A DNA stretch of 64,000 nt. It comes from Comamonas sp. BIGb0152. Its GTDB lineage: Bacteria > Pseudomonadota > Gammaproteobacteria > Burkholderiales > Burkholderiaceae_C. Every line of letters begins with the position of its first letter. Position 1 is the stretch's first letter. The translations under genes were made by a program, and so were the position numbers. The notes below the pieces were generated by a model that did not search any database, was not told where the DNA came from, and saw only the letters and a list, made by a program, of their open reading frames with translations. The stretch is taken from the NCBI RefSeq assembly GCF_024809975.1, contig NZ_JANUDY010000011.1, forward strand, positions 124,001 through 188,000. Reading direction: 5' to 3'. Shown one piece after another: positions 5,206-15,643 of this stretch.

Positions 5206-8200
5206 TTAGGTCAAGCTGCGCTGGCGCGCGCTGCGCAAGCCCAGCGCTGCGGCCAGGGCCAGCAGCAAGGACATCAGCAGTTGCCCACCCATGGACACCG
5301 TCGGCACGGGCACTGGCACCGCCTCGGGCTCGGGCGGGGGCACCGGCGGATCCACATCAATGGCATTGCGGATCACCTCGTCCTCATCCTCACTGCTGCA
5401 CGCTGCCTCGCTGCTGCACTGGGCGGCATCGCGCACCCGGGCCAGGTTACGGATACGGGCTGGCGCCGTGGCAGTCACCTGGGCCAGCACTGCATAGCCG
5501 ATGGACTCGCCCCCTGCCAGGGTCACCCCGGTGCAGCCTGAGGGACTGCAAACACCGGCCGCGCTATGGGCTCCCACCTCGGTCGCGCTGATCTCGGTCA
5601 CCACCATGCCGGTGGGCACATCCTCCCACTGCAGCTGCACCGGCATTCCGCCCTGGTTGCTGAGGGTGACCAAGTAGCGGGTGCGGGTGCCTTCCAGTAC
5701 CTGGTCCACGCCATTGCTTTTGTGCACCGTGATTTGGGCTGGCGCCAGCACCTCGGTGCGTGCCTGGGCGCAGCTCTCGGCGGGCAGGCATGCAGCGCCA
5801 GGAACGGGGGGCTCACGGCCTCCCAGCGGATCGATGGCGGCATGGTTGGTGATGGTGCCTGCCACAGCCGGCGCGGTGGCATGCAAGGTATAGGCCGCGC
5901 TTGCACCCTGCTCCAGTGCCGCATCCAGCACCACCTCGCACAGCAAGGGCGAACCGGTGCATGCCACCGATGCCACACCCGCACCAGCCGTTGCACCGGT
6001 CAAGCGCATGCCATCCGGCAAGGCCTCGGCCACAATCAGCGTTTGCCCGGCTGCAGCAGCGGTCTGGCCGCTGTTGCCAATGCGGAAGTGGTAGTCCAAC
6101 GCCTGGCCGGCTTCCACGGTATTCGCAGCCGTCTTGGTCAGGCTCAAATGCACAGGCGTGCGCAAACTGTCGGTATCGGTGGCCACGCAAGGGGCCGCGG
6201 CGTTGCAGTGGGCACCGGTCAGCGTGGCCGTGTTGCGCACCACCGCATCAGCGCGCCCCTCCACCAGCGCGGTGACCCGTGCCTGCACCTGGTAGCTGAC
6301 ACTGGCCTGCGCAGCAACGGTAATGCCCGTGCAGCCCATCGGGGCCTCCAGGCGGCAGCTGCCCGCATCACTGGGCGGGCTTGCCCCCAGCGGCGTGATG
6401 GCCTCAATCTCCATGCCTTCGGGGCTGTCCAGCCAGGCCAGGTCCGTGGCGGGCATGCCGCCGCTGTTGCGGATGCTGACGGTGTAGGTGCTGCGGGCCC
6501 CTTCGCTCAGCGCATCGACGCCATTACCTTTGCTGATGCTGAGCGCGGCGGGCAGCGCAATGGCGTCCCGGTCCTCTGCGCTGCAGCTGTTGCCGCCCGT
6601 GCAGCTGGCACCGCTGAGGGTGACCGCATTGCGGGCGTTGTCCGGGCCCACTTCGCCGATCACCGTGGCCTGCACCGCGTACACAATGGCATCCCCCGCC
6701 GCCACCGTGATATCCGAGCAGCCACTGACCGTGCACAGGCCCGCCTCGCTGTTGGCGCCCACCGTGGTGGCCGCGATGCGGTCAATGCGCAGGCCCACCG
6801 GGCTTTCTGCCCAGCGCAGGCCCGCGGCCACGCTGCCGCCGGTATTGCGCAGCAGCACCTGGTAGACGGTACTGCCACCCTGGGCCAGTACATCCACCCC
6901 ATTGCTCTTGCTGATATGCATGTTGGCGGCAGCGACGACCAGATCGGTATCCGTGCTCGCGCAGCCGGCCACCGACTCGCTGGTGCAGGTGCCGCCGCGC
7001 ACCACCGCCTTGTTGCTGACCGAGGCGCCGGCTGCCACCGCAGCCAGCACCCGGGCGGTGACGAAATACTGAATCGATTGCCCTGCTGCCAAGCTGATGC
7101 CGCTGCAACCCGAGGTGGTGCAGGCACCTGCCAGGCTGCCAGCGCCCACGCTGCCCGCACGGATGCCCGTGACGGTCAGGCCGACGGGCGTATCCGCCCA
7201 GCTCAGCCCCGAGAATGCAGTCGCCGCACTGTTGCTCAAGGTCACGGTGTAAGTGGTCTCGGCGCCCACCGTGAGGCGGTCAACCCCATTGGTCTTGACC
7301 ACGCTGACCGAGTCGGCCGCGACGACCAGATCGGTGTCGGTACTGGTGCAGCTGCTGGGGCTGCCACTGCTGCAATTGGCCCCATCCACCGAGGCGGTGT
7401 TCGATGCCATCGATCCCACCGGCCCGGTCACCTCGGCCTCCACGCGGTAGGTGATGGACGCACCAGGCGCAAGCACCATAGCGCTGCAGCCGTTGCTGTC
7501 GCAGACCCCGGCATCGCTGCCCGCGCCCACCGCAGCGGCCTGGATACCCAGCACGCGCACACCGTCTGGCCTGTCCAGCCAGGACACATCGCTGGCCACC
7601 GAGCCGCCCGCATTGCTCACCGTCACGGTGTAGACCGCGCTGGCGCCCGCCGTCAGCGCCGCGACCTGGTTGGTCTTTTGCACGCTCAGGGAGGCAGGCG
7701 TGCTTACCGCCTCCTGGTTGTAGGCCACAAAGGCAATGTCAGAGTCACCGCTGAGCGTTTGCACAAAACCGGCCACCCGCGCCATGTTCTCAGGCGTGAT
7801 GCCGAAGTCGGCGAAATGGTAGGCGCGCATGCGCAGATCGCGGCTGCCATCGCCTACCGTGGACTTGGTGTGGTTGGGGTTCCAGAACTGCCAGTTCTGC
7901 CGGGCTACGACTGGCACGCTGCTCAGCGTGATGGTGACGGTATTGCCCACCACTGCGCCGGTGTCGTCAATAAAGTAGAACTGGTCTGACCTGCTCGATG
8001 GCTGGCCCACCTGGGTGACCAGCACATCGGGCACCGCATCCGTGGTGGACTCGGGATTGCCCACGCTGGCATTGAAGCGCAGCGAACCCGCAGGGATATT
8101 GAACAAGGCGGTGCTCAGGTCCAGGCCATGCACGCCGTCGGACAAGTACGACGCCCGCGTCTTGGAGACGTCGTAGCTGCCGCTTTGGGCAATGGCATTG

Positions 8201-8529
8201 AGCCCGCCAGTGGCCGGCAGTGAGCTGGGGTTGGGCGTAAAGGCCTGGAACACCGCTGCCTGGAAGGCCCCAGTCAACACGGCATCGTTGACCCCGGTCG
8301 AGTAGCGCACGCCACCGGCGGTGAACGCCAACAAATCATTGCGCCCATTGGCCGCCGCTGCGGTGGCGGCATTGCTGGTCGTCGCCGTCCAGCTGTTGCT
8401 GTTGAAGCTGCCCCAGACGGCACCCACATTGTCCGCGGCATGGGCGCAAGCCAGCCCTACCAGACAACCCAGCCCCACCGTCGCGCGCACCAGCCTGTCA
8501 CCCAGTGCCATCCCATTAACTGAACCCAT
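5206..8529 (-). CDS. Large DUF11-repeat surface protein with IPTL-CTERM-like anchor
   Basis: About 1107 residues. A signal peptide (MALGDRLVRATVGLGCLVGLACAHA) is followed by a globular region to about residue 275. Six DUF11-like repeats of roughly 120 residues follow; each opens with a K-x-NGVD-like motif (VSVVKTNGVD, MHISKSNGVD, LSISKGNGVD, ITVHKSNGVD). Several hold a C-x(3-4)-GC motif before a beta strand, suggesting disulfides. The C-terminus has PVPTVSMGG, one hydrophobic helix and an RSARQR tail, resembling IPTL-CTERM sorting signals. Likely exported and cell-surface attached; ligand or partner unknown. The ATG at 8529 has an AAAGGT ribosome site; the frame extends 23 residues further upstream. 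Confidence 0.82.
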   Translation of the reverse strand: MGSVNGMALGDRLVRATVGLGCLVGLACAHAADNVGAVWGSFNSNSWTATTSNAATAAAANGRNDLLAFTAGGVRYSTGVNDAVLTGAFQAAVFQAFTPNPSSLPATGGLNAIAQSGSYDVSKTRASYLSDGVHGLDLSTALFNIPAGSLRFNASVGNPESTTDAVPDVLVTQVGQPSSRSDQFYFIDDTGAVVGNTVTITLSSVPVVARQNWQFWNPNHTKSTVGDGSRDLRMRAYHFADFGITPENMARVAGFVQTLSGDSDIAFVAYNQEAVSTPASLSVQKTNQVAALTAGASAVYTVTVSNAGGSVASDVSWLDRPDGVRVLGIQAAAVGAGSDAGVCDSNGCSAMVLAPGASITYRVEAEVTGPVGSMASNTASVDGANCSSGSPSSCTSTDTDLVVAADSVSVVKTNGVDRLTVGAETTYTVTLSNSAATAFSGLSWADTPVGLTVTGIRAGSVGAGSLAGACTTSGCSGISLAAGQSIQYFVTARVLAAVAAGASVSNKAVVRGGTCTSESVAGCASTDTDLVVAAANMHISKSNGVDVLAQGGSTVYQVLLRNTGGSVAAGLRWAESPVGLRIDRIAATTVGANSEAGLCTVSGCSDITVAAGDAIVYAVQATVIGEVGPDNARNAVTLSGASCTGGNSCSAEDRDAIALPAALSISKGNGVDALSEGARSTYTVSIRNSGGMPATDLAWLDSPEGMEIEAITPLGASPPSDAGSCRLEAPMGCTGITVAAQASVSYQVQARVTALVEGRADAVVRNTATLTGAHCNAAAPCVATDTDSLRTPVHLSLTKTAANTVEAGQALDYHFRIGNSGQTAAAAGQTLIVAEALPDGMRLTGATAGAGVASVACTGSPLLCEVVLDAALEQGASAAYTLHATAPAVAGTITNHAAIDPLGGREPPVPGAACLPAESCAQARTEVLAPAQITVHKSNGVDQVLEGTRTRYLVTLSNQGGMPVQLQWEDVPTGMVVTEISATEVGAHSAAGVCSPSGCTGVTLAGGESIGYAVLAQVTATAPARIRNLARVRDAAQCSSEAACSSEDEDEVIRNAIDVDPPVPPPEPEAVPVPVPTVSMGGQLLMSLLLALAAALGLRSARQRSLT

Positions 8530-9064
8530 CACACCTTTACCAATCTTGTTGAAACCACGGTCACTGACGTACCAAAGCCCTGCCTGCCTGCGCAGCAACA
8601 GGGCCTGTACTCATCAGAGGAAATTCAAAAAATATATTAACTTAATCAATTATCAAAACCAAGCCTTCGATTCCATGTATTCACTTTGGTTAACAAAGCG
8701 TGAAACCACCCTTCATCGCAACACGGACCAGAGTCATAATTTCAATATGTGATATTTGTATCATTTTATTTCACAATCGGTATACCACCAAGCCACAGGT
8801 GTATCCCCCCTCAGGACCGATCACTTTGCGGCCTGGGCTTCCACTGACCGGTCGGCACTTGACAGGACCGGTGCATCTTCCTGATGCCATGTGTAGCCAC
8901 AGGCCAATACCGCCCGGAATGGGACGCCTAAGTGCAGGAATTAGTAACGAATACCAGCAAAATCTCGCATCTTGCCATCCTGCTTTTACAATGCCCGGTT
9001 GACCGTCGGTCTCAACGACATGTTGCTATGTCTTTGCGTGCCGTACCGCCTAGTTTCACTTCCT
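8530..9064. other. Divergent intergenic region with AT-rich core
   Basis: This 535-bp gap separates the divergent DUF11-repeat gene and the 776-residue secreted-protein gene. Positions about 8620-8800 are much richer in A/T than the surroundings and should hold both promoters. On the minus strand, TTGATAATTG followed by TTAATATATT is promoter-like. A perfect inverted repeat, TGATA-TTTG-TATCA, lies at 8750-8763. No gene is supported inside. Confidence 0.55.
8750..8763. promoter_or_regulatory. Inverted repeat, possible operator
   Basis: TGATA and TATCA form a perfect 5-bp inverted repeat around TTTG in the AT-rich divergent promoter zone. The spacing does not fit an FNR box (TGAT-N4-ATCA), so the protein that binds it, if any, is unknown. 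Confidence 0.3.
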
Positions 9065-11395
9065 ATGAAAACACCCATGCGACTGATCTCCAAAAGCATT
9101 ACAGCTGCGCTGATATCTTGCGCCGTCTCCGCAGGTTGGGCTGCCAACACGATTGCCCCACAGAACGGAAACTGGATCATTGCCGAGGAATTGGGCGGCA
9201 AGCCCGGCCGCGGCATGGGCATTGATGTCCAAGACGGCATCTTCCTGATGCAGCTGTACAACTACAACAAAGACGGCAGTGCCACCTTCCACATGGCAAC
9301 AGGCGCAGTGGTTGACAACAAGGTGGACGCACCCCTCAAAAAGTACAAGGATGGACCTTACTTTGGAAGCGGCCGCCGCGATGGCGTGGAAGCTGGAAAT
9401 GCCGGCAATGTGAAGATTGAATTCACCAGCCGCACTACCGCTACCATCCAGCTCCCAGGCGAAGAGCCCAAGCTGATGCAACGCTTCAACTACGAAAGCA
9501 CGCCAGAGGACCAATGGTCCGACCCCGCCTTTGTCGAGCGCTGGGCCATGGTGACGATGGATGCGGATGGCAAACCCACCTCGACCTTCTTTGCCGATAC
9601 GGCCATTGGCACCCAAATGGCCATGGTCCCAAACATGGCTGCAGGCTGGCCTTACAAATCCAGCAGCAAATTTACCGTGCATACGCTGGACCTGGCTACG
9701 CCCAACAAACATGGCTTCATGGAATGCGAGTACCTGGGCTCGAACATGGAATTCAGCTGCGTCGGCGAACAAGTGGACACCAGCTCGGGAAGTGCCGTGC
9801 GCAAGCCCATCAGCCTGGTCATGCAGCGCAGCATCGACGACCTGCAAGGCACGATGACGCTTGACGGTAGCGACACCAAGGTGATGGGCGCTCGGGTGGA
9901 GCAAACGGCGTACGCGATCGAAGAAAACAAGGTCGTCACGCGCGCTTATTTCCGCCGCAACTCTCTGCCCGAAGCCGGCACCTGGATTATCAGCAGCGAA
10001 GTCACCGGCAAAGCGGGCCGAGGCATCTCCCTGGACCTGCAAAAGCCGGTCGGCAGCAAGCACCTGCTGTTCATGCCCATCTACAACTACGATGAAAAGG
10101 GCAATGCGACTTTCCATATCGGCATGGCCACCCATAGCCCCAGCTCGGTCAACCCATCTTTGCCTGCCATCCCGGTGATGAAGTACAAGGGCGGACGTTA
10201 TCTGGGCGGCCCTGCGCAAGATGGCGTAGAAGACGTGTATGTTGGACCTGAACAGATCACCTTCAACACCACCGTGACCGGCCTGGTTCAGTTCCCCAAA
10301 GAAGACCCCATGGCCTTCAAGCGCTTTTACTTCGGGATCAACCAGGACAGCGTGGACAGTCTCGTTGGCACCTGGGCACTGGTGCCGCATGCTGGCGCCG
10401 TCAAGCACCGCATTCTCAACCTGAAGAAAACCTCCAGCGGTGTGGTCGAAGACAAGGATGCGGGCTACACCTGCACGGTGTCTTACTGGCTGGATCTGCG
10501 CTTTGTCTGCGAACCTAAGACAGTCACCTCTGACCAGCAGCGCATTCGCCTGGGCGCCGGTTTTTATGGTGCGGCCCGCGCTATTTTGGGCGATGGCGGC
10601 TCCCTGCCTAACAGCTCTCCCGAGTTGACCGCTATCCGTATTGCTGACGGCCAGGGCAACCTCGTGCAAGGCGGCCCCCTCTACCCCGTCGACGACGAAG
10701 GCAGCAACCCCGGCAACGGCGAGGCAATAGCGCCTACCGCCCAAATCGGCACGGTGACCGGCGCAGTGGAAGGCGGCACCGTGACCTTGGAAGGCAGCGG
10801 CAAGGCTGCGGCCGGCAAGCGCCTGACATACAAGTGGACGCTGAGCTCTGCCCCTGCAGGCAGCGAGGCACAACTGAAGTCTGCCGACACCATCAGCCCC
10901 AGCTTTGTCGCCGACAAAGCTGGCAGCTATGTGATCACGCTCGTGGTCAATGATGGCAGCAAGGACAGTGCGGCAGCCAAGGTGACGGTAACCGTCATGC
11001 CCAAGGACGGCATCCAGCTGCTGCGCGACGATGACTCCTCCGCGTCGGGCCAGGCGCTGAGCTGGCCATACACCGCTTCGTCGGAGATCAGCGCCAGCGT
11101 AGCTTGCGTGGGTGCTTGCGATAACACCTACAAGATTGCGCAGTACAAGCTCCAAGTCAATGGCGCGGATTACACGATTGCCGACCTCAAAGCGACCAAC
11201 CTGACCTCGGGGTCCAGCATCAAAGCGTCTTTTGAAGGTCTGACTGAAGGCCAAGTGGTCACTTCGGACAAACCTGTATCCTTTGCGCTGCGCAGCACCT
11301 ATACCAATGGCAAGACGGTTAATCTGAAGTTCAGCTTCACGATCAAGGAAACCGGTGAGGCCTTCATCTACACCAACACCTTTAGAACCAATTGA
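9065..11395 (+). CDS. Secreted protein with duplicated PGRG/Cys-pair module and PKD-like domain
   Basis: A 776-residue exported protein with a signal peptide ending near SAGWA. Two copies of a two-part module (residues about 35-300 and 305-545) each start with G-x-W-I-I, then PGRG or AGRG, a YNY strand, ATFH, a GG/DG-rYfG segment and a FPGE/FPKE strand. Each is followed by a second part with a Cys pair (CEYLGSNMEFSC; CTVSYWLDLRFVC). Residues about 560-650 look like a PKD/Ig-like domain, then a C-terminal domain of unknown type with one Cys pair (ACVGAC). The same module forms the whole protein at 14099-15643. Function unknown; extracellular or periplasmic location inferred. No clear ribosome site precedes the ATG; a second ATG lies at 9077. 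Confidence 0.8.
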   Translation: MKTPMRLISKSITAALISCAVSAGWAANTIAPQNGNWIIAEELGGKPGRGMGIDVQDGIFLMQLYNYNKDGSATFHMATGAVVDNKVDAPLKKYKDGPYFGSGRRDGVEAGNAGNVKIEFTSRTTATIQLPGEEPKLMQRFNYESTPEDQWSDPAFVERWAMVTMDADGKPTSTFFADTAIGTQMAMVPNMAAGWPYKSSSKFTVHTLDLATPNKHGFMECEYLGSNMEFSCVGEQVDTSSGSAVRKPISLVMQRSIDDLQGTMTLDGSDTKVMGARVEQTAYAIEENKVVTRAYFRRNSLPEAGTWIISSEVTGKAGRGISLDLQKPVGSKHLLFMPIYNYDEKGNATFHIGMATHSPSSVNPSLPAIPVMKYKGGRYLGGPAQDGVEDVYVGPEQITFNTTVTGLVQFPKEDPMAFKRFYFGINQDSVDSLVGTWALVPHAGAVKHRILNLKKTSSGVVEDKDAGYTCTVSYWLDLRFVCEPKTVTSDQQRIRLGAGFYGAARAILGDGGSLPNSSPELTAIRIADGQGNLVQGGPLYPVDDEGSNPGNGEAIAPTAQIGTVTGAVEGGTVTLEGSGKAAAGKRLTYKWTLSSAPAGSEAQLKSADTISPSFVADKAGSYVITLVVNDGSKDSAAAKVTVTVMPKDGIQLLRDDDSSASGQALSWPYTASSEISASVACVGACDNTYKIAQYKLQVNGADYTIADLKATNLTSGSSIKASFEGLTEGQVVTSDKPVSFALRSTYTNGKTVNLKFSFTIKETGEAFIYTNTFRTN

Positions 11396-11456
11396 GGTCT
11401 GGTGGCGGGACATCCATGGCACGGTGACATCCGCGCCTAGCCCCGCCAGCAACCCG

Positions 11457-11488
11457 GCCTTCTGCCCAGCGGCGGAAGGCTTTTTTTT
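11457..11488 (+). terminator. Rho-independent terminator
   Basis: GCCTTCTGCC and GGCGGAAGGC pair over ten positions (one G-T wobble) around a CAGC loop and run into eight T's. It ends the transcript of the secreted PKD-domain protein. Confidence 0.92.
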
Positions 11489-11669
11489 GCCCAGCTTCTT
11501 CGCAACCGGGACAGCCCAGAGCACCGGGTCTAGCCCGGATGTGGTACATACGGCAAACACCGCTGTCCCTACACGGCTTGCCAGCTGCTACCGCAACTGC
11601 GGCAAGATACGCCGAGCCCTGCGCTCAACCCCCGGCCTGCCGACGCTTTCGCTTTCGCTTTCCTGAGTC

Positions 11670-12917
11670 ATGCACCACAACGACGCTTCCGCTCCCCCGA
11701 ACACACCACCGAGCACGCCCCCCGCCCCCTCCACCCTGCCGCTGGCCGGCCTGCGCGTGGTCGAATTCAGCCACATGGTGATGGGACCCACCTGCGGTTT
11801 GGTGCTGGCCGATCTGGGCGCTGAGGTCATCAAGGTTGAGCCGGTTGAGGGCGATCGCACCCGCCATCTGCTGGGCGCGGGCGCCGGCTTTTTCCCGATG
11901 TTCAACCGCAACAAGAAGAGCGTGGCCATCGATCTGCGCCAGGCCTCGGGGCTGGAGGCGGCGATCCGCCTGGCCAGCACGGCCGATATCGTGGTGCAGA
12001 ACTTCAAGCCCGGCGTGATGCGCAAGTACGGGCTGGACTACCGCGCGCTGTCCCAGCTCAACCCGCGCCTGATCTATGTAAACCACACCGGCTTTCTGCC
12101 CGGCCCTTACGAGCACCGCACCGCGCTGGATGAGGTGGTGCAGATGATGGGCGGCCTGGCTTATATGACCGGCCGCCCCGGCGACCCGCTGCGCGCGGGC
12201 ACCAGCGTGAATGACATCATGGGCGGCATGTTCGGTGCCATAGGTGCCATGGCCGCACTGATGCAGCGTGCCCAGACCGGCCGGGGCCAGGAGATCGATT
12301 CGGCGCTGTTCGAGAACAATGTGTTCCTGGTGGGCCAGCACATGATGCAGTTCGCGGTGACCGGCCAGGCCGCCGAGCCCATGCCCAACCGCATCTCGGC
12401 CTGGTCGGTGTATGACGTGTTCACCGTGCAGGATGGCGCCCAGATCTTTCTGGCAGCGGTGAGCGATGCGCAGTGGAGCACCCTGTGCAAGGCCTTTGGC
12501 TGGGGCGATCTGCTGGCCCACCCCGGCTACACCAGCAACAACGAGCGGGTGCGCCTGCGCCCCCAGTTGCTGCCCGAGCTGCGCCAGCGCTTTGCCACCA
12601 TGACTGCGGCGCACATTGGCCAGGTATTTGAGGACAACGGCCTGCCCTATGCCCCGATCAGCAAGCCCGAAGAACTGCTGGACGACCCGCATCTGCTGGC
12701 CAGCGGCGGCCTGGCCCCTGTGCGCTTGAGCGATGGGGAACGCGCCGGACAAATGGCACCTACCACCTTGCTGCCGCTGCGCATGGCCGGTGAGCGCCTG
12801 GGCGTGCGCATGGACCCGCCTCAACTGGGCCAGCACACGCAGGAGCTGCTGCGCAGCCTGGGCTATGGCGACGACAGCATTGCGGCGTTGCGCGACAGCC
12901 AGGCCATTGCGGGTTAA
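11670..12917 (+). CDS. CaiB/BaiF family (family III) CoA-transferase
   Basis: A 415-residue cytoplasmic enzyme of the family III CoA-transferases, which move CoA between carboxylic acids through an aspartyl-CoA intermediate. The N-terminus has the family start LAGLRVVEFSHMVMGP and VLADLGAEVIKVEP. The predicted nucleophile is Asp154 in HRTALDEVVQMMGG. The mid-region GxxSxxF/MGGMFGAIGAMAALM helix and the late LEDPHL-like LDDPHLLASGG are typical. The acyl substrate cannot be told from sequence. A Pro-rich 20-residue extension precedes the domain. Three copies of GCTTTC lie just upstream of the start; the ribosome site is weak. Confidence 0.9.
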   Translation: MHHNDASAPPNTPPSTPPAPSTLPLAGLRVVEFSHMVMGPTCGLVLADLGAEVIKVEPVEGDRTRHLLGAGAGFFPMFNRNKKSVAIDLRQASGLEAAIRLASTADIVVQNFKPGVMRKYGLDYRALSQLNPRLIYVNHTGFLPGPYEHRTALDEVVQMMGGLAYMTGRPGDPLRAGTSVNDIMGGMFGAIGAMAALMQRAQTGRGQEIDSALFENNVFLVGQHMMQFAVTGQAAEPMPNRISAWSVYDVFTVQDGAQIFLAAVSDAQWSTLCKAFGWGDLLAHPGYTSNNERVRLRPQLLPELRQRFATMTAAHIGQVFEDNGLPYAPISKPEELLDDPHLLASGGLAPVRLSDGERAGQMAPTTLLPLRMAGERLGVRMDPPQLGQHTQELLRSLGYGDDSIAALRDSQAIAG

Positions 12918-13173
12918 GAATGGGTCCACGGCCCAGGCCCAAATGTGAAAATCCCTCAACCCGGGCCATTGCGGCAGTCTGTCCTACATGGCTGCCGCCA
13001 ACGCCAGCCTACGCTGTGGCTCTTTGCTGCGGGGCAGGGCCTGCCCCAAGAGACTTGGAACAGATGGTAAGGCTTGCGAAACTTGCAGCCCATCGCCCAC
13101 TCCAAGCCCGGCAACCCGGGCACCCAGGCCTTCGGCAGGATGCCCTCCGTGACTGTTTTGAAAAGGAATTTTG

Positions 13174-13902
13174 ATGAAAAAAATGCGCATGCTGGCCACC
13201 GCCGCCTTGATCGCCGCCACCCCCTTTGTAGCCTCTACTGCCATGGCCCAAAACACCACGCCTGCCACTGTCGACAAACGCCCCAGCCTGAACCTGGATG
13301 CAGAAGCCACCACCCGCGTGCCTGAAGACACGGCCTGGGCGCAGTTCAGCGTCGAGAAGGAATCCAAGGACCAGGCCCAGGCCCAGCAACTGGGCAAGAC
13401 GGCGCTGGCCGATGTGCTGGCCACCGCCAAGAAGTCCCAGGTCCTGCAGGTCACGACCGAGAACCTGTTCACCACCCCGGTCTACAACAAGGACGGCAAG
13501 GTCACCAGCTGGCGCACCCAGTTCAATGTGCAGCTGGAGTCGACGGACACCGCCGTGCTCGGCCAGACCATGGCAGCACTGATGGACAAGGCCCGCCTGA
13601 GCGGATCGGGCTTCCGCCTGTCGGATGCGGCGCGCAACAAGGCGCAAGACCAGCTGATTGCCGAGGCGGTCAAAAACTTCAACGCCAAGGCCAAGGTCAC
13701 CGCCAATGCCATGGGTTACGCGCAGTACGAGTACGACACCATCAATCTGAGCCAAAGTGGCAGCAGCCAGCCGATGCCCCGCATGGGCCGGGGCGTGGCC
13801 ATGATGAGCAAGATGGAAGACAGCAGCGCCCCCGTGGGCCTGGAGCCCGGCTACACCACCGTGTCGGTCAGCATGTCGGGCGCAGTGCGTTTGATCAAGT
13901 AA
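13174..13902 (+). CDS. SIMPL domain-containing (DUF541) periplasmic protein
   Basis: A 242-residue exported protein. The signal peptide MKKMRMLATAALIAATPFVASTAMA is followed by a DUF541/SIMPL domain: LDAEATTRVPEDTAWAQFSVE, a middle TENLFTTPVYN segment, and a C-terminal strand PGYTTVSVSMSGAVRLI. Related proteins (BP26/OMP28) form oligomeric envelope channels or chaperone-like rings, but function is poorly known. The ATG at 13174 is preferred over the in-frame TTG at 13171 because AAGGA sits six bases upstream. Monocistronic, with a terminator downstream. Confidence 0.88.
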   Translation: MKKMRMLATAALIAATPFVASTAMAQNTTPATVDKRPSLNLDAEATTRVPEDTAWAQFSVEKESKDQAQAQQLGKTALADVLATAKKSQVLQVTTENLFTTPVYNKDGKVTSWRTQFNVQLESTDTAVLGQTMAALMDKARLSGSGFRLSDAARNKAQDQLIAEAVKNFNAKAKVTANAMGYAQYEYDTINLSQSGSSQPMPRMGRGVAMMSKMEDSSAPVGLEPGYTTVSVSMSGAVRLIK

Positions 13903-13947
13903 GCGGCGCCTGAAGTGCGCAGTTGACCAACGCTCACCCCAACCCAG

Positions 13948-13985
13948 GCCAGGTGATGGCAGCGAAACCATTCCCTGGCTTTTTT
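13948..13985 (+). terminator. Rho-independent terminator after the SIMPL-domain gene
   Basis: GCCAGG pairs with CCTGGC, with a second inner stem ATGG/CCAT, followed by six T's. Confidence 0.85.
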
Positions 13986-13998
13986 GCGCCCTTCCCCC

Positions 13999-14018
13999 GC
14001 AAGTGATTAACCACTTGC
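13999..14018. promoter_or_regulatory. Inverted repeat, possible operator
   Basis: GCAAGTG and CACTTGC form a perfect 7-bp inverted repeat around ATTAAC, about 80 bp upstream of the secreted-protein start at 14099. It has no U-tract, so an operator is more likely than a terminator. Confidence 0.4.
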
Positions 14019-14098
14019 CACCGTCGACCAATCCCACAAGCCGTAAACATTTGTAGCAATATGGGCGCCGTAGCCATCCCGGCTAGCAGGAGTGAATC

Positions 14099-15643
14099 AT
14101 GTCCCGTACTGTTCGCCCTTGGCTGCAGCGCAGCCCGCTCTTTCGATCCTCTTTGCTGGCCGGCGCCCTGGTGCTGCTGGGCAGCCCGCCGGCACAGGCG
14201 GCCAGCGATTTCACCCCTTTGCCGGGTACCTGGATCGTCAGCGCCGAGCAAGACGGCAAGCCGGGTCGGGGCATGGCCATCGATGTGCAGGATGGCGTGC
14301 TGGTGATGCAGGTCTACAACTACGGGGCCAATGGCAATGCGACTTTCCATCTGGCCGTCGGCAGCATCGATGGCAACCAGGTGGCCGCCCCGCTCAAAAG
14401 CTACCGGGGTGGGCGCTATTTCGGCAGCGGGCCTTTGTCAGGCGTCGAGGATGGCGATGCTGGCGAGGTCCGCATTGAATTCACCAGCGCCACCCAGGCA
14501 CAGCTGCGCTTTCCCGGCGAGCCTACGGTGGCGATACAGCGCTTCCGCTTCGACAACACCGCGCCCTCCGCCTTACCGGGTGCCTACTGGCTGTTGTCCA
14601 TGCAAGACAGCACCGGCAGGGCGGTCTCATCGGCCCTCGCACTCAGCGGGGTGGACAGCACCAGTCCCTACCTGATCATGGCCTTGGCCGATGGCACGCA
14701 AATCCCGACAACATGTAGCTACAGCCCGACCTTGCAAGGCTTTAACTGCAGCAACGGCAGTGCCACGCCCGCCGTCAGGCTGCAGTTCCAGACGGTGCTG
14801 CACCAGTTGAGCGGCTCGGCGCAGTTGGACGGCAGCAGCTACCAGCTGGTGGGGCAGCGCCTGCTCAGCCCGGATGGCTATGACTCCCTGGTGTTCAGCG
14901 AAACCACGCCCGTGCCCGCCAGCGGCACCTGGATCGTGACCGGCGAGAAAAATGGCCAGCCCGGACGCGGCATGGCCATCGATGTGCAGACCGGCACCCT
15001 GGTCATGCAGGTCTACAACTACCAGGCCGATGGCCATGCCACCTTCCACCTGGGCGTGGGCGCCTTTGCCAATGGCCAGGCCAGCGCGCCGCTTAAAAGC
15101 TACCAGGGCGGCCGCTACTTTGGCAGCGGCCCGCGCAGTGGTACCGAGGCTTCCAGCGCTGGCGAGGTGTTTCTGGATTTCAGCTCGCCCACACGCGGCC
15201 ATATCCGTTTTCCGGGTGAAGGGGCGGTGGCCATCGAGCGCTTTGTGTTCGCGCCCGTCGCGCCAGACCCTGCCAGCCTGCTGGGCAACTGGACCTTCCA
15301 CGACACCACCAACAAGGAGACCGCGCATGTAGCGCTGACCCAGGTCGATGGCACGGCCGCCACCACGGCTGGCGGCGGCGTGCGCTGCAGCTTTCTGAAC
15401 CCGGCCACTGCCCAAGTGCGCTGTGTGGAGACCTTCACGATCTCCGGCCGGGGCAGTGTCTACCTCAAGGACTACCGCTTTGTGCTGCAGACCGATATGG
15501 GCTCGGGCAAGGCTTTGAAAGCAGGTGAGCTGGCGCGCAGCGATGCACTGCCCGATGACAGCAGCACCCAGAAAAACTCCCTGCTGGCGCTGCGCACGGC
15601 CGACCGCCGAGGCATGAAGCGGGGCCTGGGTACGGCTTTCTAG
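14099..15643 (+). CDS. Secreted protein of two PGRG/Cys-pair modules
   Basis: A 514-residue exported protein. After a signal peptide (cleavage near PPAQA), the whole chain is two copies of the module also found at 9065-11395. Module 1 (about 42-272) has GTWIVSAEQDGKPGRGMAID, VYNYGANGNATFHL and the Cys pair CSYSPTLQGFNC. Module 2 (about 275-505) has GTWIVTGEKNGQPGRGMAID, VYNYQADGHATFHL and CSFLNPATAQVRC. The two modules are closer to each other here than in the longer paralogue. An AGGAG ribosome site supports the start. The function is unknown; the beta-rich repeats suggest a carbohydrate- or protein-binding extracellular protein, which is only a guess. Confidence 0.82.
   Translation: MSRTVRPWLQRSPLFRSSLLAGALVLLGSPPAQAASDFTPLPGTWIVSAEQDGKPGRGMAIDVQDGVLVMQVYNYGANGNATFHLAVGSIDGNQVAAPLKSYRGGRYFGSGPLSGVEDGDAGEVRIEFTSATQAQLRFPGEPTVAIQRFRFDNTAPSALPGAYWLLSMQDSTGRAVSSALALSGVDSTSPYLIMALADGTQIPTTCSYSPTLQGFNCSNGSATPAVRLQFQTVLHQLSGSAQLDGSSYQLVGQRLLSPDGYDSLVFSETTPVPASGTWIVTGEKNGQPGRGMAIDVQTGTLVMQVYNYQADGHATFHLGVGAFANGQASAPLKSYQGGRYFGSGPRSGTEASSAGEVFLDFSSPTRGHIRFPGEGAVAIERFVFAPVAPDPASLLGNWTFHDTTNKETAHVALTQVDGTAATTAGGGVRCSFLNPATAQVRCVETFTISGRGSVYLKDYRFVLQTDMGSGKALKAGELARSDALPDDSSTQKNSLLALRTADRRGMKRGLGTAF

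Follow-up and report, generated by a model that had tools for sequence, protein, structure and literature searches.

Two-part modules with a constant, predicted calycin-like barrel and a variable cysteine-pair partner in exported-looking proteins of Comamonas

Introduction

AimA of Aeromonas is a protein of two calycin domains that came to light when the supernatant of a type II secretion mutant was compared with that of the complemented strain; that report describes homologues from Aeromonas only, together with one divergent second copy, AimB (PMC6219842). The cargo proteins of the type 11 secretion system (T11SS) are, according to another study, unified by a C-terminal eight-stranded barrel (PMC12282271). 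Here we describe two genes, A and B, in a 64,000-nucleotide stretch of the genome of Comamonas sp. BIGb0152 (the window; contig NZ_JANUDY010000011.1, positions 124,001 to 188,000). Each encodes a protein with two modules, and each module has a part bearing a PGRG motif (the PGRG part) followed by a part bearing two Cys residues (the Cys part). We read A and B as exported binding proteins that would be built from pairs of eight-stranded calycin barrels, each module combining a constant PGRG barrel with a variable domain that carries a cross-strand Cys pair, and we put the probability of this reading at about 0.5.

Results

The PGRG parts form one family

Gene A (P0001, 776 residues; 9065–11395) and gene B (P0002, 514 residues; 14099–15643) lie 2.7 kb apart, both on the + strand. 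A profile built from their own four PGRG parts matches B at residues 39–157 (E 2e-62; 14213–14569) and 272–390 (E 1e-59; 14909–15265), and A at about residues 31–149 (E 5e-62; 9155–9511) and 302–429 (E 6e-55; 9968–10351). Because those same parts built the profile, independent support comes from their identities to the first PGRG part of B (63% for the second part of B, 54% and 41% for the first and second parts of A) and from a search with B as the sole query, which returned 18 matches in its own genome, some of them B and A themselves. A first-pass annotation, made from the letters of the window, had proposed four such modules in the two proteins, and both genes lie where it placed them. The motifs that it quoted are real, except that FPGE is LPGE or FPKE in A. 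Its Cys pair is also there: each of the four Cys parts (A, 9512–9958 and 10352–10699, with approximate boundaries; B, 14570–14884 and 15266–15613) contains C-x10-C or C-x11-C, in B as C206/C217 and C430/C442.

The PGRG parts of module 1, of module 2 and of proteins with one module belong to a single family (hhalign E 5e-49 to 3e-58). Module 2 and the one-module proteins have related Cys parts (hhalign probability 84%); the Cys part of module 1 has no detectable kinship to either (2.9% and 0.5%, respectively). Profile comparison likewise finds no kinship between the two domains within one module (probability below 3%). The two-part build of the module and the distinctness of its Cys half, both proposed in the first-pass annotation, are supported. 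Since the Cys halves of modules 1 and 2 have no profile similarity, duplication of the whole module, as originally proposed, cannot be demonstrated: at the level of sequence profiles, demonstrable duplication is limited to the PGRG halves. In a tree of 60 PGRG parts, the first module of A groups with the first modules of giant proteins described below (100/96) and the second with their second modules (100/97). A and the giants therefore descend from one two-module unit; 21 of the 57 inner branches, and with them the deeper order, are open.

Searches of Pfam and NCBIfam at E≤1 gave matches in the PKD region of A only and none in B, and Pfam matched none of 10 further paralogues of the genome (the giant was not among them). 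B had no match in PHROGs at E≤0.001, BFVD gave none at E≤0.001, and a sequence search of the PDB returned nothing below E 0.02 and nothing credible. Among the open-access titles listed, no paper deals with these proteins. By sequence, the modules belong to no named family in the libraries searched. The suggestion of an undescribed family survives for the sequence and not for the fold, which is predicted to be a known one.

The alignments behind these and the following results differ in membership. A1 contains 48 of 86 PGRG parts, six of them from RCC1-type proteins. A6 (76 rows) contains all 72 fetched PGRG parts and the four of the window, with frames identical to those of earlier-fetched loci collapsed; the frames of L101, L103, L113, L115, L121 and L137 are merged under other names. 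A4 is without L101 (wrong frame), L139 (overlapping frames) and L131 (split), and A5 is without L120, L129, L131, L136 and L141 (fused, split or short).

Predicted folds of the two parts

An AlphaFold model of B from a 24-row alignment has a mean predicted local distance difference test score (pLDDT) of 79.4. The first three domains (residues 43–148, 162–256 and 276–381) have eight strands apiece, mostly at pLDDT 84–94. Modelled alone from 76 rows, the PGRG part again has eight strands, with a mean pLDDT of 89.5. Its best structural match by VIA-align is a redesigned beta-barrel (PDB code 6czj; Z 9.9, 96 residues aligned, root mean square deviation (RMSD) 3.0), and it also matches the alpha subunit of quinohemoprotein amine dehydrogenase (1jmx; Z 9.1, RMSD 5.3), Cap15 (Z 9.0) and AimA (6b7l; Z 8.2, 91 aligned, RMSD 2.9). 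Avidin-type, nitrophorin or designed barrels make up 46 of the 50 listed matches (34 avidin-type at Z 7.9–9.0, five nitrophorins at 8.0–8.3 and seven designed barrels), and 63 of 1000 chains reach Z≥8. Calycins are marked by a Trp in the first strand and an Arg or Lys in the last, as described in two reports (PMC2954199, PMC5040251). In the PGRG part, strand A has Gly in 74 and Trp in 75 of the 76 rows, and strand H has Arg in 74 and Lys in one. With the signature residues present in 75 rows at either end, the sequence agrees with the predicted barrel fold.

Against this assignment, Z scores of 8–10 are just moderately above the 7–8 typical of unmatched models; Foldseek is weak for the PGRG part, its best match being nitrophorin 2 (E 7e-4, TM-score 0.51); and for the whole of B the best Foldseek matches are sliding clamps, with TM-scores of about 0.1. 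The DSSP string of the PGRG part has a short helix after strand A and not before it; calycins have a capping 3-10 helix. On these models, the PGRG part is very probably a calycin-like (streptavidin-like) eight-stranded barrel. We rejected the match of whole B to the DNA sliding clamps (E 3e-4, RMSD 24) as a spurious superposition of a multi-domain model, and that to TbpB (E 9e-4, TM-score 0.14) likewise.

The Cys part of B module 1, with eight strands in the model, has residue blocks at pLDDT 84–93. Its best VIA-align match is 1jju (Z 11.1, 102 aligned, RMSD 3.2), over a range that runs into module 2. Residues 38–257 of B, a whole module, match D-aminopeptidase 1ei5 (Z 8.8, 160 aligned), but the RMSD of 14.1 means that the two domains do not superpose as one rigid unit. 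In module 2 the Cys part (residues 396–501) is less sure: it is irregular in the model, with the residue blocks 461–490 below pLDDT 50.

The Cys pair is invariant wherever the residues are present: in 24 of 24 sequences for module 1, in 23 of 24 for module 2 (one gap) and in 19 of 19 one-module proteins. C206 and C217 are on adjacent strands and would face each other if the hairpin pairs as the strand ends suggest (206+217 = 209+214); this cross-strand pair is probably a disulfide. As for the calycin signature, module 2 has Gly and Trp in 23 of 24 Cys parts (one gap) and Arg or Lys in 15, and the one-module proteins have Trp in 14 of 19 (Phe in five), Arg in 15 and Lys in one. Module 1 lacks the signature in its Cys part, and 7 of 24 sequences of module 2 have Gln in place of the last-strand Arg; both speak against a calycin assignment. 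We consider it likely, on the models, that the Cys part is also a calycin-like barrel, more clearly so in module 1.

Conservation and selection

The two parts differ clearly in conservation between paralogues. Among 24 two-module proteins, the mean pairwise identity is 56.2% for the PGRG barrel of module 1 and 16.6% for its Cys part, and 45.4% and 23.0%, respectively, for module 2; among 19 one-module proteins it is 53.2% and 31.5%. Between close orthologues of B, the ratio of nonsynonymous to synonymous substitution rates (dN/dS) is 0.20–0.22 for the first Cys part and 0.02 for the barrel.

Full-length orthologues of A occur, among the matches listed, in four other genomes of the genus (95, 93, 63 and 63% identity). 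Those of B have 89 and 88% identity in G014 and G018 and 51% in G008. In G014 the two orthologues are also separated by 2.7 kb; G018 has the orthologue of B and no full-length A among the matches listed. Every segment compared between orthologues has dN/dS (Nei-Gojobori) below 1. The finding exceeds chance by a wide margin, and both genes are being maintained.

Within the PGRG barrel, loops AB, CD, EF and GH with two flanking residues carry 2.40 bits of information, compared with 1.58 for loops BC, DE and FG (rank test P 1.5e-4; reached by 52 of 5000 circular shifts, of which 105 are distinct). In a meander barrel, AB, CD, EF and GH lie at one end, which is the ligand end in lipocalins. Conserved residues include E15, R22, D27, Q29, Y40 and E106.

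Other measurements temper the picture of a conserved mouth and a selected partner. Strands A and B are conserved most (3.39 and 2.89 bits), so the peak is not confined to the mouth; loop CD has low information (1.74 bits); and mouth positions conserved at ≥90% are not significantly enriched (12 of 48, 9.5 expected, P 0.165). In A, the Cys parts evolve no faster than the barrels among the three closest species by dN/dS. The low identity of the Cys parts may reflect drift, as no segment has dN/dS near 1, and some of their divergence may be misalignment. In the aligned sequences the contrast between the PGRG and Cys parts of paralogues is clear; selection for change is not demonstrated by dN/dS.

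Copies in the genome and wider distribution

The genome-wide count of paralogues revealed a larger family than the first-pass annotation had noted. The 76-row profile detects 22 PGRG parts in the host genome (all 63 candidates were scored), which we grouped into 13 genes; nine of these carry two parts and four a single part. Eleven of the genes are short stand-alone forms of 281–568 residues; the one-module form of about 285 residues has a signal peptide and two probable barrels.

On the matches listed, modules occur in 14 of 53 genus genomes. Of 17 matching genomes we set aside G441, G017 and G027, whose listed matches fall within the PKD region; in G017 and G027, moreover, B finds no match. 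At least 22 of 299 family genomes, in 13 of 141 genera, have PGRG matches, and in five of the 22 these are weaker G-x-W...GRG-type matches only (best E 1e-16 to 1e-18). In the searches of class and family genomes no more than 12 or 15 candidates were scored per genome, so the counts are minimum values. Among the carriers are Comamonas, Delftia, Acidovorax, Paracidovorax, Diaphorobacter, Xylophilus and Lampropedia. One family genome of another genus (G670, C29:506971-513438) has eight PGRG parts in 6.5 kb and four frames, about four tandem two-module genes.

The two-module unit is also found at the C-terminal end of giant proteins of about 1200–3700 residues. All three giants that were scored with their N-terminus match the choice-of-anchor P model NF040603 (54.6, 64.4 and 56.2 bits; cut-off 27), and the first part of a 5'-cut giant does not. 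The Ca_tandemer adhesin repeat is over its cut-off in two of three giants and just below it in the third. Giants at L055:1-14691, L058, L057, L059 and L048:8245-11850 have Ig-like repeats, with the two-module unit in place of a known anchor, and L055 and L057 show two choice-of-anchor P type giants in tandem.

One divergent one-module gene of the host genome (L052:8296-9138, − strand) lies in a prophage, with genes for holin, endolysin and an Rz-like spanin on one side and one for a protease on the other. It is oriented opposite to these neighbours, a moron-like position. A phage origin of the family was considered and rejected: B has no match in 50,697 phage records at E≤1e-5. The divergent copy matched none of the viral contigs scanned; profile A3 matched one, which is not shown to be phage. 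Two plasmid records match; one is a 373-kb plasmid of C. odontotermitis, in which three places match.

Exported RCC1, subtilase and DUF5122 propeller proteins have more distant PGRG-type pairs at their C-terminal ends. The four-part profile finds these barrels, in fetched frames, at E 2e-6 to 1e-12, and a plastocyanin-like protein at 6e-4, which bears out the suspected kinship of the PGRG part with wider G-x-W...GRG repeats. At L061, L084, L078 and L076 the G-x-W-W...GRG barrels are C-terminal pairs or singles, and Pfam has no match to that part.

Layout of A and B and their neighbours

Both proteins look exported: judged by eye, A begins with a Sec-type signal peptide at 9065–9142 and B with one at 14099–14203. 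As first described, B consists of two modules only, and A continues with a PKD domain (10730–10996) and a C-terminal domain (11000–11392). PF22352 matches the former at residues 572–644 with 44.3 bits (cut-off 27); PF18911 (residues 556–644) is below its own cut-off. The C-terminal domain is kept in full-length orthologues; neither Pfam nor NCBIfam gives it a separate match at E≤1.

The interval between A and B (window 11670–13902) holds genes for a CoA-transferase III and a SIMPL (DUF541) protein in the same orientation as A and B. Window 5206–8598 (− strand) encodes a 1130-residue DUF11-repeat protein whose C-terminus (PTV, a hydrophobic stretch and an Arg-rich end) resembles an IPTL/PEP-type sorting tail; it matches no NCBIfam sorting model at E≤0.001.

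Discussion

The calycin fold serves chiefly for binding. Because of this predicted fold, the conserved end of the constant barrel and the variable partner, extracytoplasmic binding is the most likely role of the module proteins, and on balance we think it probable. Through its conserved end, the constant barrel would serve a function that the paralogues have in common: it would either dock onto one surface partner or ligand used by all of them or keep the variable barrel in place. Specificity would lie with the variable barrel. Copies would multiply by dispersed and tandem duplication and by fusion to giant surface proteins, with at least one in a prophage. The first-pass annotation had proposed extracellular binding or adhesion: exported binding is plausible, and adhesion has no direct evidence, though the unit ends giants with adhesin-type repeats. 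As for the route out of the cell, the genome encodes the secretin GspD (TIGR02517, 619.5 and 429.1 bits; cut-off 351.35), and type II secretion is a possibility that we consider less likely than not. A bolder form of the proposal is rather unlikely: a repertoire in which a near-invariant calycin dock carries a disulfide-pinned barrel that has diverged among paralogues for different targets, as a natural counterpart of anticalin libraries that is duplicated, fused to giants and carried by a prophage.

The PGRG barrel might instead be a sorting or secretion tag that sends varied N-terminal domains to an outer-membrane exporter, as the C-terminal barrel shared by T11SS cargo does (PMC12282271). 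The barrel or pair is indeed C-terminal on unrelated exported proteins (choice-of-anchor P giants, RCC1, subtilase and DUF5122 propeller proteins), and TbpB chains are among the VIA-align matches of B (Z 4.2–7.0). Yet the modules of A are N-terminal, with the PKD domain after them, neither A nor B has a lipobox by eye, and the T11SS exporter PF04575 is found in five of the 53 genus genomes and in none of the 14 that bear modules. The same search finds PF04575 in 17 of 143 class genomes (12 over the cut-off) and in none of 14 control genomes; the cargo barrel PF01298 has no match in the host genome or in any control genome. The distribution of PF04575 disfavours type 11 secretion, and we judge the tag explanation unlikely, although a different exporter may exist. 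About equally improbable is that the modules are structural filler, stable surface or periplasmic spacers with no specific ligand. Fusion to long repeat proteins, the poor conservation of the Cys part and the structural look of the most conserved positions (13 of the 21 at ≥90% are Gly, Pro, Phe or Leu) would suit a spacer, but 11 of the 13 genes are short stand-alone forms, Pfam finds nothing else in B and the 10 other paralogues, and the polar and charged positions from E15 to E106 named above are conserved.

By analogy with AimA, the proteins could be secreted host-interaction factors that act on eukaryotic immunity or grazing. Their one-module form resembles AimA in layout, with a signal peptide and two probable barrels, 6b7l matches the PGRG barrel, and a type II secretin is present; against this, no sequence match to 6b7l is found at E≤5 and the fold match is no better than that of the avidins, and we consider such a role quite unlikely. 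Less probable still is that they capture siderophores or haem for neighbouring TonB-dependent receptors. Of the 13 genes, two are close to TonB-dependent siderophore receptor genes, at distances of 199 and 86 bp (L045, L047), and for a third the nearest such neighbour noted is a plug-domain gene (C8:40014) some 1.7 kb away. However, with 33 plug-domain matches in the genome, a rough estimate gives about 0.7 such neighbours per 13 genes (Poisson P about 0.15 for two and 0.04 for three, at a distance chosen after looking), and both close receptor genes run in the opposite direction. Of 65 overlapping loci, seven have a receptor no more than 1.5 kb away, and six of these seven show the gap sizes of the same two places. 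We regard this siderophore link as weak and post hoc.

The reading of A and B as exported binding proteins of paired barrels provides a sizeable exported family, unnamed in the copies of Pfam, NCBIfam and PHROGs searched, with a predicted fold and an anatomy that can be tested, and ties it to a broader G-x-W...GRG domain that ends other secreted proteobacterial proteins. If the variable barrel does set specificity, the family would be a natural system for the diversification of the calycin scaffold in binding; if the constant barrel acts as a dock or as a signal for export, then its partner would be a component of the surface or of secretion that is new.

Among known systems, avidins, lipocalins and other calycins share with the PGRG part the predicted eight-stranded meander barrel, the first-strand Trp and the last-strand Arg. 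They differ in that A, B and 10 further paralogues have no Pfam avidin or lipocalin match at E≤1, and in that the conserved PGRG, D-x-Q and GGR motifs are peculiar to the PGRG part. The barrels of 1ei5, 1jju and 1jmx, which we take to share SCOP fold b.61 with avidin, match the Cys and PGRG parts, 1ei5 spanning the whole module; they are, however, parts of enzymes, with identities of about 10%, and 1ei5 superposes poorly, as noted. The G-x-W-W...GRG barrels of the RCC1, subtilase and DUF5122 proteins are homologous to the PGRG part, but there two PGRG-type barrels stand in direct succession with no Cys part, and the plastocyanin-like protein has a single one. TbpB and other T11SS cargo (PF01298) are exported and two-lobed, with eight-stranded barrels, whereas A and B have no lipobox, the exporter is absent from the module-bearing genus genomes, and the fold match is weak. 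AimA (PDB code 6b7l) resembles the module proteins in having two tandem calycin domains, which here are predicted, in its match to the PGRG barrel at Z 8.2, and in the type II secretin of the genome. It differs in that profiles A6 and A5 do not retrieve 6b7l from the PDB at E≤5, in its two copies (AimA and AimB) as against 13 genes here, and in that the available part of its description mentions neither a Cys pair nor a PGRG loop (PMC6219842). On the predicted structures, AimA, though without detectable sequence kinship to the module proteins, appears to be their nearest architectural parallel.

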